Shown: positions 54,038-58,246 of the stretch, one piece after another
Position numbering within the stretch: position 1 is the stretch's first letter
Layout: the number at the start of each line of letters is the position of its first letter
Source of the DNA: Gillisia mitskevichiae
GTDB taxonomy: Bacteria; Bacteroidota; Bacteroidia; Flavobacteriales; Flavobacteriaceae
NCBI RefSeq assembly: GCF_003634585.1
Contig: NZ_RBLG01000001.1
Location: 1,178,001-1,242,000 of the forward strand
Length of the DNA stretch: 64,000 nucleotides
Direction: 5' to 3'
Notes under the pieces: generated by a model
Database searches by the model: none
What the model was told of the DNA's origin: nothing
The model's input: the letters and a program-made list of their open reading frames with translations, nothing else
Made by a program: the position numbers and the translations under genes

Positions 54038-54170
54038 AGCTAAGCTTTTTTCAAAAGTATGGATAAATTTATTTTAAAAGGGTTTTCACTAAAACGTTAT
54101 CGTGAAAAAATATAAAAAAGTATAGGTGATATTAAATTAAATACTACATTAGCGATAGTTAAAAAGAACA

Positions 54171-54248
54171 ATGAAGAATATAATTACTTGGACTGCATTC
54201 TATTATTTTTATTTCTATTACGGAGATAAGATCGGGAGCGTCATGTAA
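54171..54248 (+). CDS. Phe/Tyr-rich leader peptide of the aromatic operon (25 residues)
   Basis: A 25-codon ORF starting MKNIITWTAFYYFYFYYG. Eight consecutive codons encode Phe or Tyr (three Phe, five Tyr, 54198-54221), and one Trp is just before. It lies 73 nt before pheA and ends 23 nt before a strong terminator. ATCGGGA (54231-54237), in the ORF just after the aromatic run, can pair (one G-U) with TCCTGAT (54275-54281) of the terminator 5' arm, giving an antiterminator. This parallels the E. coli pheL leader in logic, with Tyr added as fits an operon making both amino acids. The mixed Phe/Tyr run would respond to lack of either. Confidence 0.88.
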   Translation: MKNIITWTAFYYFYFYYGDKIGSVM

Positions 54249-54271
54249 TTAAAATTATAAATTATATAAAG

Positions 54272-54309
54272 AGGTCCTGATTTATTAAAAATCAGGACCT
54301 TTTTTTTTT
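54272..54309 (+). terminator. Attenuator terminator of the Phe/Tyr operon
   Basis: AGGTCCTGATTT pairs with AAATCAGGACCT around a 5-nt loop, followed by T9. It sits 13 nt before the pheA ATG with only the leader ORF upstream. Confidence 0.93.
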
Positions 54310-54321
54310 GAAAATTTTTAA

Positions 54322-55146
54322 ATGGAAAAAATAATAGGAATTCAAGGAGTTCAAGGTTCTTTTCATCATTTGGTGGCTCAAGAATACTTTGGAACAAATG
54401 TGAAGGTACAGGAATGTATGTCTTTTCATGAGTTAGTGAATTCCCTTGTTGCTGGGGAATCTCAGGAAATTGTGATGGCCATAGAGAATTCTATTGTTGG
54501 TTCCATTTTGCCCAACTATGCACTTATAGATGAGCATAATCTTAGCGTAGTAGGTGAACATTATATTCCTATAAATATGAATTTAATGGCAGTGCCGGGA
54601 CAAGATATCTCTAATATTAAAAAGGTGTTTTCGCATCCTATGGCCTTACTTCAGTGTAAAGAATTTTTTAAAAAATATCCTCATATAAAATTGATTGAGG
54701 ATACAGATACAGCCGAAGTAGCCCGAAGAATTTCAGAAAAACGATCTATGGGAATTGGAGCCGTAGCTAGTACAATGGCAGCCGAATTATTTGGATTAGA
54801 GATTCTTGCTGAAGGCATTCATACTAAAAAAAGTAATGCTACAAGATTCTTAATTGTAAGCAATATTAAAAAAGAGCCTAATGGAATACAGATGGATAAG
54901 GCTTCCTTGAAATTTGAATTAGAAAGCCGAAGAGGAAGTCTAGTATCTGTCTTAAATATTATACGGGATTATAATTTGGATATGACTAAAATACAGTCTA
55001 TGCCCATAATTGAAACTCCTTGGAAATATTCATTTTTCGTAGATGTTATCTTCGAGGATCACTTAGAATTCCAAAAAGCGATGGAAATCGTAGAAGTGAT
55101 GACAGAGCATTTAAAAATATTAGGCACCTACAAAAATAAATTATAA
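54322..55146 (+). CDS. pheA: Prephenate dehydratase
   Basis: A 274-residue enzyme converting prephenate to phenylpyruvate. The catalytic part has IGIQGVQGSFHHLVAQEYF (about 5-23), AIENSIVGSILPNYALI, the two-part motif KVFSHPMALLQCKEFF and the TRF loop SNATRFLIVS. The C-terminal ACT domain (about 190-274) shows SLKFELESRRGSLVSVLNIIRDYNLDMTKIQSMPI, likely for Phe feedback. It is a stand-alone dehydratase without chorismate mutase; that activity is fused to the DAHP synthase three genes later. First structural gene after the Phe/Tyr attenuator. Its stop overlaps the next start (TAATG). Confidence 0.95.
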   Translation: MEKIIGIQGVQGSFHHLVAQEYFGTNVKVQECMSFHELVNSLVAGESQEIVMAIENSIVGSILPNYALIDEHNLSVVGEHYIPINMNLMAVPGQDISNIKKVFSHPMALLQCKEFFKKYPHIKLIEDTDTAEVARRISEKRSMGIGAVASTMAAELFGLEILAEGIHTKKSNATRFLIVSNIKKEPNGIQMDKASLKFELESRRGSLVSVLNIIRDYNLDMTKIQSMPIIETPWKYSFFVDVIFEDHLEFQKAMEIVEVMTEHLKILGTYKNKL

Positions 55147-56288
55147 TGATCCAAGCAGAACGATTAAATGAAGTAAAGGAATACTATTTTTCTTCAAAAT
55201 TGCGGGAAGTAAGGGCTTTGGAGGCCTCTGGGAAACCCATTATTAATTTGGGGATTGGAAGCCCTGATCTTCCTCCACCTGTAGAAGTTATAGAAGGTTT
55301 AAATGATGCCTTGGCAAAAACGGCAGCACATCAATACCAGCCTTACAAAGGAACCTCAGATTTTAGAAGTGCAATAAAAGAATTTTATAGTACACATTAC
55401 TCTGTGAGCCTTGATGCAGAAAAAGAAATTCTTCCTCTTATGGGGAGTAAAGAAGGGATCTTACATATTTCTATGGCTTTTCTAAATGAAGGAGATCAGG
55501 TTTTAATTCCAAATCCGGGATATCCTACCTATTCTTCTGTTACCAAATTAGTTGGAGCAGAACCTGTTTTTTATGATCTGAATGAAAAAGGCAATTGGTT
55601 ACCAGATCTGGAGAGTTTAGAGAAGTTGGATCTTAGTAAAGTGAAAGTGATGTGGGTAAACTATCCGCATATGCCAACAGGAGCTTCAGCAACTAAAAAG
55701 GTGTTTCAAGATCTTGTGGCATTTGCTAAGAAACATCATATCCTCATCGTTAACGATAATCCTTACAGCTTCATTCTTAACGATCATCCTATTAGTATTT
55801 TGGAAGCAGAAGGAGCTAAGGAGGTAGCATTGGAATTGAATTCGCTTAGTAAAAGTTTTAACATGGCGGGATGGCGAATAGGAATGGTATGTGGAAATGA
55901 AGATAATTTAAATTCCGTTTTAAAGGTGAAGTCCAATATGGATAGTGGAATGTTCTTCCCTTTACAAGCTGGAGCAGCAATAGCATTGCGTTTACCCAAA
56001 GAATGGTTTAACGAATTGAATGTTATTTATAGAACACGAAAAGAATTGGTATTGGAGCTAGCTTCAAAATTGAACTGTATTCCAGAAAAGGACCAAACCG
56101 GGATGTTTGTTTGGGCAAAGGTGCCATTAGACACTACCTCGGAATTATTTGTAGATCATTTATTACATACCTATGATCTGTTTGCAACTCCTGGTTTCAT
56201 TTTTGGCGATCAGGGAGAAGGTTATATACGATTCTCACTTTGTACTACAGAGGAGAAAATTAAGGAAGCAATTAATAGAATTAAATAA
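55146..56288 (+). CDS. Aromatic-operon aminotransferase (class I/II PLP)
   Basis: A 380-residue class I aminotransferase likely doing the final transamination to Phe and Tyr. Seen: LGIGSPDLPPPVEVIEGL, YQPYKGTSDFRSAIKEFY, VLIPNPGYPTYSSVTKL, the cofactor residues in VNYPHMPTGA and VNDNPYSFIL, the lysine in ELNSLSKSFNMAGWRIGMVCGN (about 232), and YIRFSLC with the substrate arginine near the C-terminus. The start codon overlaps the pheA stop by one base and its own stop overlaps the tyrA start (TAATG), implying translational coupling along the operon. Substrate assignment is by context; the enzyme class is clear. Confidence 0.92.
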   Translation: MIQAERLNEVKEYYFSSKLREVRALEASGKPIINLGIGSPDLPPPVEVIEGLNDALAKTAAHQYQPYKGTSDFRSAIKEFYSTHYSVSLDAEKEILPLMGSKEGILHISMAFLNEGDQVLIPNPGYPTYSSVTKLVGAEPVFYDLNEKGNWLPDLESLEKLDLSKVKVMWVNYPHMPTGASATKKVFQDLVAFAKKHHILIVNDNPYSFILNDHPISILEAEGAKEVALELNSLSKSFNMAGWRIGMVCGNEDNLNSVLKVKSNMDSGMFFPLQAGAAIALRLPKEWFNELNVIYRTRKELVLELASKLNCIPEKDQTGMFVWAKVPLDTTSELFVDHLLHTYDLFATPGFIFGDQGEGYIRFSLCTTEEKIKEAINRIK

Positions 56289-57136
56289 TGAGAGTACATA
56301 TAATAGGTGTAGGCCTCATAGGCGGATCTTTCGCGGTGGATATTAGAAATGTATTTTCTGAAGTGCAGTTGGTTGGTGTAGATAATAATCCAGATCATCT
56401 TCAACAAGCACTATCCTTGGGAATCATTGATGAGATTGAGGAAATAAACGATGTTAGATCCTCAGATCTGGTAATTGTGGCTGTGCCGGTAGATGTAAGT
56501 ATTCCGCTTATAAAACAAGTTTTGGATTTAGTAGAAGACCAAACCTTGGTAATCGATACCGGTTCTACTAAAGGAAAGCTGTGCGAGGCTTTAAGCACAC
56601 ATCCAAATCGGCGTAATTTTTTGGCAGCTCATCCAATCTCTGGAACAGAGTTTTCCGGACCTCAAGCAGCAGTAAAGGATCTCTATAGGAATAAGACGAA
56701 TATTATTTGTGAGGTAGAAAAAACCGCATTTAAGCTTCAGGAAAGAGCATTAGAGCTTTTCCAAAAATTAGGAATGAGAATATGTTATATGGACCCAAAA
56801 TCTCATGACAGGCATATCGCATATGTTTCACATTTATCGCATATAAGTTCTTTTATGCTTGGTAAAACAGTATTGGAAAAGGAAAAAGACGAACGCAATA
56901 TTTTTGATCTTGCCGGTAGTGGTTTTGCTTCTACTGTTAGACTCGCCAAAAGTTCTCCTGCCATGTGGTCTCCAATTTTTGAGCAAAACAAAGAAAATGT
57001 TGTGGAGATCTTAAAGGAATATATTCAGAATCTCAACATGTTTAAAGACTTACTGGAGAATAACGATTTTGAAGGAGTCTTTAACGAAATGGAAAAAACA
57101 AATCATATCAAATCTATATTAAACGGAATTATTTAA
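56288..57136 (+). CDS. tyrA: Prephenate dehydrogenase
   Basis: A 282-residue NAD-dependent enzyme producing 4-hydroxyphenylpyruvate for tyrosine. It has the Rossmann motif VHIIGVGLIGGSFAVDIRNVF (about 3-23), VIVAVPVDVSIPLIKQVLDLV, VIDTGSTKGKLCEAL and FLAAHPISGTEFSGPQAA with the catalytic histidine. DRHIAYVSHLSHISSFMLGKTVL and LAGSGFASTVRLAKSSPAMW follow, where prephenate-binding residues lie. No chorismate mutase or ACT domain is attached. The ATG overlaps the aminotransferase stop, and the DAHP synthase gene follows 27 nt later. Confidence 0.95.
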   Translation: MRVHIIGVGLIGGSFAVDIRNVFSEVQLVGVDNNPDHLQQALSLGIIDEIEEINDVRSSDLVIVAVPVDVSIPLIKQVLDLVEDQTLVIDTGSTKGKLCEALSTHPNRRNFLAAHPISGTEFSGPQAAVKDLYRNKTNIICEVEKTAFKLQERALELFQKLGMRICYMDPKSHDRHIAYVSHLSHISSFMLGKTVLEKEKDERNIFDLAGSGFASTVRLAKSSPAMWSPIFEQNKENVVEILKEYIQNLNMFKDLLENNDFEGVFNEMEKTNHIKSILNGII

Positions 57137-57163: not shown

Positions 57164-58246
57164 ATGGAAAATAAAAAAGAACTAAGAACATGGTTAGATA
57201 AATTTAACCTTGATCATCCACTTGTAATAGCAGGACCTTGTAGTGCTGAAACTGAAGATCAACTTGTGGGAATTGCAAAACAATTAAAGGATAGCGATGT
57301 TAGCGTATTACGAGCCGGTTTATGGAAACCAAGAACCCGCCCGGGAAATTTTGAAGGCGTAGGCGCATTAGGTTTAAAATGGATGCAAACCGCAAAAGAA
57401 GAAACAGGATTGCTAACAACTACAGAGGTAGCGAATGCAAATCATGTGGAATTAGCCTTAAAACACGATGTGGATATTTTATGGATTGGAGCCAGAACTA
57501 CTGTTTCTCCTTTTATCGTTCAGGAAATTGCAGAAGCCTTAAGAGGAACAGATAAAACTGTTTTGATAAAGAATCCTGTGAATCCAGATCTTTCATTATG
57601 GTTGGGAGCTGTGGAGCGATTTTATACTGCGGATGTTAAAAATTTAGGAGTGATACACCGTGGATTTTCTGCTTATGAAAAAACCAAATACAGAAATAAT
57701 CCAGAATGGCAAATTCCAATAGATCTCCAAAACAGATTTCCGGACCTACCACTTATTTTAGACCCTTCTCATATTGCAGGAAGACGTGATATTATTTTTG
57801 ACCTTTGCCAAACAGCTTTAGATCTTAACTATGACGGTTTGATGGTAGAAACTCATCATGATCCAGATAATGCTTGGAGTGATGCAGCGCAACAAATTAC
57901 ACCAGCTACCTTAATCCAAGTGATGAAAGATCTTAAGATTAGAAAAGAGATCTCTGAAAGTGAAGAATTTGTGAGCAGCTTGAAGAATTTACGTGCAAAA
58001 ATTGATATTGCAGATCATCAATTATTAGAGATCCTTTCAAAAAGAATGAAAATAGCAGATGAAATAGGTGTAATTAAAAAAACACAAAACGTTGCTATTC
58101 TTCAAACATCTAGATGGAATGAGATCTTAGGTAAAATGATCTTGGAAGGAGAGCAGCAAGGTTTAAGTGAAGAATTTGTTTTAAAAATGTTTAAGGCTAT
58201 TCATCAAGAATCTATAAATCATCAGAAAAAAGTAATTAGCGAATAA
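57164..58246 (+). CDS. Bifunctional DAHP synthase / chorismate mutase
   Basis: A 360-residue fusion that both starts the shikimate pathway and channels chorismate to prephenate. The N-terminal DAHP synthase of the KDPG-like type (about 1-265) shows PLVIAGPCSAETEDQL, VLRAGLWKPRTRPGNFEGVG, IGARTTVSPFIVQEIAEAL, VIHRGFSAYEKTKYRN, LILDPSHIAGRRD and GLMVETHHDPDNAWSDAAQQ. The C-terminal AroQ chorismate mutase (about 270-358) reads LRAKIDIADHQLLEILSKRMKIADEIGVIKK and RWNEILGKMILEGEQQGL. Such fusions may allow Phe/Tyr-linked feedback through prephenate. It is the last gene of the attenuated operon; rsgA starts 26 nt later and could be read through. Confidence 0.95.
   Translation: MENKKELRTWLDKFNLDHPLVIAGPCSAETEDQLVGIAKQLKDSDVSVLRAGLWKPRTRPGNFEGVGALGLKWMQTAKEETGLLTTTEVANANHVELALKHDVDILWIGARTTVSPFIVQEIAEALRGTDKTVLIKNPVNPDLSLWLGAVERFYTADVKNLGVIHRGFSAYEKTKYRNNPEWQIPIDLQNRFPDLPLILDPSHIAGRRDIIFDLCQTALDLNYDGLMVETHHDPDNAWSDAAQQITPATLIQVMKDLKIRKEISESEEFVSSLKNLRAKIDIADHQLLEILSKRMKIADEIGVIKKTQNVAILQTSRWNEILGKMILEGEQQGLSEEFVLKMFKAIHQESINHQKKVISE

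Follow-up and report, generated by a model that had tools for sequence, protein, structure and literature searches.

The RNA leader ahead of the pheA operon in Gillisia mitskevichiae is very likely a ribosome-mediated transcription attenuator, and it probably senses both phenylalanine and tyrosine, such that a shortage of either amino acid would open the operon. We analyzed this leader within a 64,000-nucleotide stretch of the genome (the window) and compared it with the corresponding loci of relatives across Bacteroidia. A sequence-only reading of the region had proposed a leader peptide with an attenuator, and that proposal is strongly supported by the conservation, covariation, and ribosome-footprint geometry described below. 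We consider attenuation very likely because of where the run of aromatic codons ends relative to the antiterminator arm, because the arm and the terminator covary, and because the leaders of trpE and hisG carry matching codon runs. The ORF, the terminator, the alternative pairing, their conservation and covariation, and the position of the end of the run relative to the arm are all computed features.

From these features we infer that the leader is translated and that ribosome stalling governs termination in the cell, with Phe and Tyr shortage each sufficing to relieve it. RNA polymerase would start just upstream of position 54171, trailed along the leader ORF by a ribosome. With both Phe-tRNA and Tyr-tRNA charged, this ribosome would pass the aromatic codons and cover the antiterminator arm (54229 to 54237), so that the terminator forms and transcription ends short of pheA. 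A shortage of either charged tRNA would instead stall the ribosome on one of the interleaved Phe and Tyr codons; the free arm would then capture positions 54275 to 54283 as they emerge, pre-empting the terminator and allowing the operon to be transcribed.

The leader peptide, described in the sequence-only reading as 25 codons with eight successive Phe/Tyr codons, is present at the place given there. It is a short translatable ORF rich in codons for the products of the operon, and it is the sole short ORF with eight of eight Phe/Tyr codons on either strand of the window. Dinucleotide shuffling of the 250 nt ahead of pheA, repeated 5000 times, never produced such an ORF. The coordinates of the leader and of the operon genes are collected in Table 1.

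Table 1. Features of the pheA leader and operon in the window.
Feature	Position	Strand	Basis
Putative promoter box TACATTAG, TAnnTTnG type	54145..54152	+	conserved in close relatives
Leader peptide ORF, 25 codons, MKNIITWTAFYYFYFYYGDKIGSVM	54171..54248	+	read directly; conserved in relatives
Trp codon 7 (TGG), possible third sensor codon	54189..54191	+	Trp recurrence and retention in relatives' leaders
Control codons 10-17, F Y Y F Y F Y Y, 8 consecutive	54198..54221	+	read directly; in the stall model, a halt at each one keeps the antiterminator free
Antiterminator 5' arm AGATCGGGA, within leader codons 20-23	54229..54237	+	pairing and stall model
Terminator 5' arm AGGTCCTGATTT	54272..54283	+	pairing, covariation
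Terminator loop ATTAA	54284..54288	+	fold of leader RNA
Terminator 3' arm AAATCAGGACCT	54289..54300	+	covariation in close relatives
T9 tract, intrinsic terminator	54301..54309	+	read directly
pheA, prephenate dehydratase with ACT domain	54322..55146	+	Pfam PF00800, E 1.1e-54
Class I/II aminotransferase	55146..56288	+	Pfam PF00155
tyrA, prephenate dehydrogenase	56288..57136	+	Pfam PF02153, PF20463
DAHP synthase fused to chorismate mutase	57164..58246	+	Pfam PF00793, PF01817

An intrinsic terminator lies between the leader ORF and the first gene. The 12-bp stem with T9 that had been read ahead of pheA was confirmed at 54272 to 54309, with pheA beginning 12 nt further on. The last 9 nt of its 5' arm (TCCTGATTT, 54275 to 54283) double as the 3' arm of the antiterminator; the pairing originally seen as ATCGGGA with TCCTGAT exists and is longer than claimed, with AGATCGGGA and TCCTGATTT forming 9 bp, two of which are G-U. 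The 148-nt leader RNA folds 5.1 standard deviations below its shuffles, and in the full-length folded RNA the terminator always wins (P = 1.00); the antiterminator must therefore act kinetically. Using our own finder, we detected a terminator in 163 of 165 picked leaders, and only L083 and L087 lacked one by the same finder. The antiterminator is individually significant (p < 0.05) in 117 of 157 loci.

We observed covariation of the two structures at different evolutionary distances. Among 15 distinct close relatives, 99.4% of terminator cells are paired and 18 cells are changed on both sides, versus a shuffle mean of 6.4 and with none of 500 shuffles as high. In the same alignment, 95.8% of antiterminator cells are paired and the variation consists only of G-C/G-U exchange; no double changes occur there, and the pairing does not exceed that of 3'-letter shuffles. 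Across genera, where arm and terminator sequences vary (111 distinct arm/partner pairs in 156 loci), each arm pairs with its own terminator at a mean of -11.2 kcal/mol, compared with a permuted-pair mean of -7.9 and a best of -8.5 in 2000 permutations. When the set was thinned to 51, no permutation out of 5000 paired as well as the own arm-terminator pairs. Thus, a mutually exclusive antiterminator that covaries with the terminator is evident across genera and not through double changes within the genus.

The position of the codon run relative to the arm was assessed with a stall model in which 13 nt downstream of the A-site codon are masked; this footprint width is assumed from general knowledge and underlies all counts from the model. 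The best antiterminator arm ends 13 to 22 nt past the last Phe/Tyr codon in 154 of 156 loci, compared with 306 of 1560 shuffles. The position of the stop codon, by contrast, is variable, with 5th and 95th percentiles of 5 and 30 nt. With the ribosome on the last Phe/Tyr codon, the antiterminator is permitted in 145 of 156 loci; one codon further on it is permitted in 47, and two codons further on in 9. Masks of 11 or 15 nt shift this edge by about one codon. In the window, the modelled switch falls between codon 17, the last Tyr, and codons 18 to 19. Under the assumed footprint, then, the final codon of the Phe/Tyr run is the last one on which a stall would keep the arm free, and a ribosome that advances would cover the arm.

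Almost every Flavobacteriales locus that we examined has such a leader ahead of pheA, and so do loci in other Bacteroidia. We found pheA in 106 of 149 relatives and examined upstream regions at 98 of the relatives' loci together with 80 loci from named Flavobacteriaceae; seven loci (L099 to L105) without a tblastn match went unscanned, and L097 came without upstream sequence. Upstream sequence of 250 nt was available for 174 loci. Of these, 161 have a short ORF in which five or more of eight codons encode Phe or Tyr, versus 43 of 870 shuffles, and in 69 the count is seven or more, versus 0 of 870. The comparative search that the sequence-only reading had called for therefore found the aromatic-codon ORF kept in relatives, and its absence from them, which would have counted against attenuation, was not what we observed. 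In a class-wide draw, a prephenate dehydratase match turned up in 33 of 119 genomes, and we scanned 30 loci; a Phe/Tyr leader occurs in 16 of the 27 loci outside the family of the window. One apparent miss, G236, has its leader (L336/L354) ahead of DAHP synthase, which there lies upstream of pheA in a rearranged operon. Only 4 of 136 tyrA-bearing operons have no leader. The nearest named relative among the fetched loci is Gillisia hiemivivida, whose PheA is 92% identical.

Ten of the 174 loci fall below four of eight Phe/Tyr codons. Four of the ten belong to small genomes of about 600 kb, and in two others (L026 and L129) the leader lies 540 to 650 nt upstream of pheA, behind inserted repeats; the sequence inserted there between leader and pheA consists of imperfect repeats with GAGTTCGAAGAACGAAATAAAATGAACTAGTTGAACTAATCCCGC. 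Genomes of about 600 kb (L079, L081, L082, L083, and L086; L380 and L382) keep pheA with no clear Phe/Tyr leader, and the two that were fetched in full keep the four-gene order, as if attenuation had been lost with genome reduction. Two further loci are unusual. L302 (G202) has two tandem Phe/Tyr-rich leader ORFs, MLQTRFFFGYYYFYAAA and MVPTQQVFFTYGYYFFYLKKPARCCQC, 312 and 170 nt upstream of pheA, possibly a double attenuator. L017 (G004) has a leader almost identical to that of the window and a PheA that is only 60% identical, which suggests that either pheA or the leader has been exchanged by recombination.

Leaders of other amino acid operons served as controls. Within the genus, and in a few relatives outside it, a Trp run is present in the trpE leader at 16 of 16 loci scanned (of 20, the weak matches L232 to L235 being omitted), and a His run in the hisG leader at 17 of 17 loci scanned; the genome's own leaders are MKNNTVHTWWWSNLRQNVVK and MKTIQLHHHHFHYCALAR, respectively. 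As further controls, ilvD (12 of 16 loci scanned) and thrA (14 of 20) showed no consistent leader.

Two other accounts of the region would dispense with attenuation of pheA altogether. According to one, the leader binds a metabolite or protein, as a riboswitch or a target of an RNA-binding protein, and the short ORF is incidental. In its favor, the 5' region is structured and includes a terminator, and the Flavobacterium psychrophilum study in which a pheA element was reported speaks of "original cis-regulatory elements" (PMC9723704). We consider this account very improbable, given that no Rfam family reaches its gathering score at the pheA leader in the window and that the codons and their distance to the arm are conserved while arm and terminator sequences differ between genera. 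Alternatively, a plain terminator might end a short transcript or a small protein gene and have no part in the control of pheA. The terminator is indeed strong and complete by itself, but this explanation has equally little to recommend it: it leaves the antiterminator and the fixed spacing unexplained, along with the match between codon content and pathway and the relocation of the leader to the first gene of the rearranged operon in G236.

Within attenuation, the main question is whether Tyr counts as a signal. The 162 leaders with a terminator yield 144 distinct peptides; counts of peptide composition, codon exchange, and geometry omit L149, where the wrong ORF was picked, and the terminator-less L083 and L087. 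At least two Phe and at least two Tyr codons are found in 143 of the 144, which come from several taxonomic orders. Codons for two end products stand where a stall would free the arm, as in a multivalent leader. The competing reading holds that Phe shortage is the real signal and that Tyr codons are near-neutral replacements, TTY and TAY differing by one base. Its precedent is the AroR leader of Corynebacterium glutamicum, which has Phe-Tyr-Phe codons ahead of the DAHP synthase gene aroF (PMC11802643, PMC4046766); a review reports that this leader answers to Phe but does not answer to Tyr (PMC11802643). Tyr codons alone are thus no proof of a Tyr response, and this precedent is the main reason why we hold the two-amino-acid claim below certainty. 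Nearest-neighbor leaders show 27 Phe/Tyr exchanges, nearly as many as the 35 synonymous changes at these codons, and Phe is the commoner residue at each of the last three run codons (75 to 81%). Tyr codons also persist in genomes in which no tyrA was found, and one leader (L098/L393) is Phe-only. Neutral exchange, however, should not produce the mixture that we observed near the arm: 138 of 144 leaders have both residues within the last four run codons, whereas 500 column shuffles averaged 119.4 and never exceeded 128. Column shuffles ignore ancestry, a problem that thinning the leaders by edit distance lessens only in part; the excess persisted down to about 49 leaders, with a count of 45.8 versus 40.2 expected and 1.5% of shuffles as high. 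The run in the window itself closes with Y F Y Y. On balance, we find Phe dominance unlikely and favor sensing of both amino acids.

The earlier rationale for dual sensing, that the operon makes both amino acids, proved not quite decisive, since tyrA-less operons keep Tyr codons. The Tyr fraction of Phe and Tyr codons is 0.407 in 122 distinct leaders of tyrA-bearing operons and 0.373 in 15 leaders of tyrA-less operons, the latter class (15 operons) being defined by the presence of DAHP synthase-chorismate mutase; we therefore rejected the idea that Tyr codons follow tyrA (Mann-Whitney p 0.45). In G054, G027, G078, and Flavobacterium microcysteis, no prephenate dehydrogenase was found and Tyr codons are still in the leaders. 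The operons of F. microcysteis (L123) and F. humi (L162) lack tyrA and both leaders retain Tyr codons; no homologue of the TyrA of the window was found in either genome, and the PDH_N family has no match in the former and only a weak one in the latter. In three tyrA-less operons from other orders, DAHP synthase-chorismate mutase is followed by putative aroA- and aroC-like genes, so named from their N-terminal motifs. The shared DAHP synthase-chorismate mutase step is thus the better correlate of the Tyr codons, and we think that the leader may read demand on this step.

A second rule, under which leaders would lose their Tyr codons in genomes that either cannot make Tyr or derive it from Phe, did not hold across the tyrA-less genomes in a search with PF00351. 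The only Phe-only leader belongs to G112, a genome that is 83% complete, in which tyrA was not found and a canonical-size phenylalanine hydroxylase is present. G226 also has a canonical-size hydroxylase, yet its leader has three Tyr codons; in G075, hydroxylase and tyrA both fall below the cut-off, yet Tyr codons are in the leader. In the same search, G000 (contig C2, 763075-763881, L311) yielded a 611-codon frame whose match to this aromatic amino acid hydroxylase family is split, and frames of this type recur in the Flavobacterium genomes searched.

Trp may be a third input. A Trp codon occurs in 87 of 144 distinct leaders (60%), compared with about 22% expected at an assumed 1.1% Trp, usually as a single codon inside the run or shortly ahead of it, and these codons cluster 5 and 9 to 10 codons before the end of the run, where a stall would leave the antiterminator arm free according to the stall model. 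Trp is kept in 36 of 42 nearest-neighbor comparisons (86%), versus 84% for Phe and Tyr and 61 to 74% for the other residues listed; four of the six Trp changes are to Phe. A three-input sensor, opened by shortage of Phe, Tyr, or Trp, would fit DAHP synthase as the first step common to all three aromatic amino acids, but we put it forward tentatively, as a somewhat doubtful extension.

The putative promoter box is conserved in 17 of 17 aligned close relatives, with constant spacing to the leader ATG, and a TTG-N16..23-TAnnTTnG arrangement is found upstream of 103 of 157 distinct leaders, versus 15 of 785 shuffles; the promoter region of the window has no clear TTG at -33. Transcription starting a few nucleotides past the box would give the leader a very short 5' UTR. 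Between a divergent ABC-transporter gene and the leader, some 50 nt ahead of the box, lies the palindrome-like CTAAAACGTTATCGTG (54089-54104), which resembles CGAAAnCGTTnTCGTA in many close relatives and looks like an operator. Its core, AAnCGnTnTCG, lies no more than 250 nt ahead of 13 of 162 leaders, and these all come from the closest relatives. Downstream, Pfam confirmed the operon content proposed earlier, namely Phe and Tyr steps plus DAHP synthase-chorismate mutase, in four genes. The first three overlap by 1 base each and the fourth starts 27 nt further on. Elsewhere in the window are a SAM riboswitch (RF00162, 46442-46547, + strand) and a SAM-II riboswitch (RF01726, 34978-35034, - strand).

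If this interpretation holds, one RNA switch some 140 nt long responds to two aromatic amino acids at once, and perhaps to a third, and sets the expression of a whole terminal pathway plus its entry enzyme throughout a large clade. Classical attenuation in Bacteroidota would then extend from the Trp leader in Rfam to the Phe/Tyr branch. In 145 of 156 loci, the control codons stop at the last position that still frees the arm, a geometry that offers quantitative models of attenuation a clean set of natural cases. With AroR in mind, these leaders offer a direct test of when a mixed codon run answers both amino acids and when it answers one.

The closest counterpart in E. coli is pheL-pheA (Phe_leader, RF01859), which likewise has a short ORF with product codons and a choice between antiterminator and terminator ahead of prephenate dehydratase. 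The pheL peptide has no Tyr, whereas the Gillisia leader mixes Phe and Tyr. E. coli encodes tyrA and aroF on the strand opposite to pheA; in Gillisia, tyrA and the DAHP synthase gene follow pheA in tandem. RF01859 matched E. coli at 132.3 bits as a positive control, and neither the pheA leader of the window nor any of five Bacteroidia loci scanned reached its gathering threshold. The Bacteroid-trp leader (RF01692) is also a Bacteroidetes leader and is present ahead of the genome's own trpE (L219, 67.9 bits), but it has a Trp run only and serves another operon; with that trpE leader as positive control, the pheA leader of the window did not reach the RF01692 gathering threshold.

The E. coli ilv and thr leaders are multivalent and provide the classical precedent for OR logic. 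Like them, the Gillisia leader combines codons for several end products in one leader; it differs from the multivalent ilv leaders in its amino acids and its operon. Upstream ORFs of ilvB rich in Ile, Leu, and Val codons have also been reported (PMC10272879). AroR, as reported, shares mixed Phe/Tyr codons ahead of a DAHP synthase operon but has a single Tyr codon and belongs to another phylum and another operon. In F. psychrophilum, structured 5' elements have been described upstream of pheA and hisG, also in other Flavobacteriaceae genera, with clues for leader-peptide attenuation at amino acid operons (PMC9723704); for the pheA element, the main text of that paper gives no peptide, codons, or mechanism. 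For Flavobacteriaceae, a structured element upstream of pheA is thus already published. The Phe/Tyr specificity is absent from the papers searched, none of which describes such a leader at pheA for any member of Bacteroidota. In kind, the Gillisia leader would be a case of classical ribosome-mediated attenuation, in a variant where a run for two amino acids is conserved in front of an operon that combines Phe, Tyr, and DAHP synthase genes.
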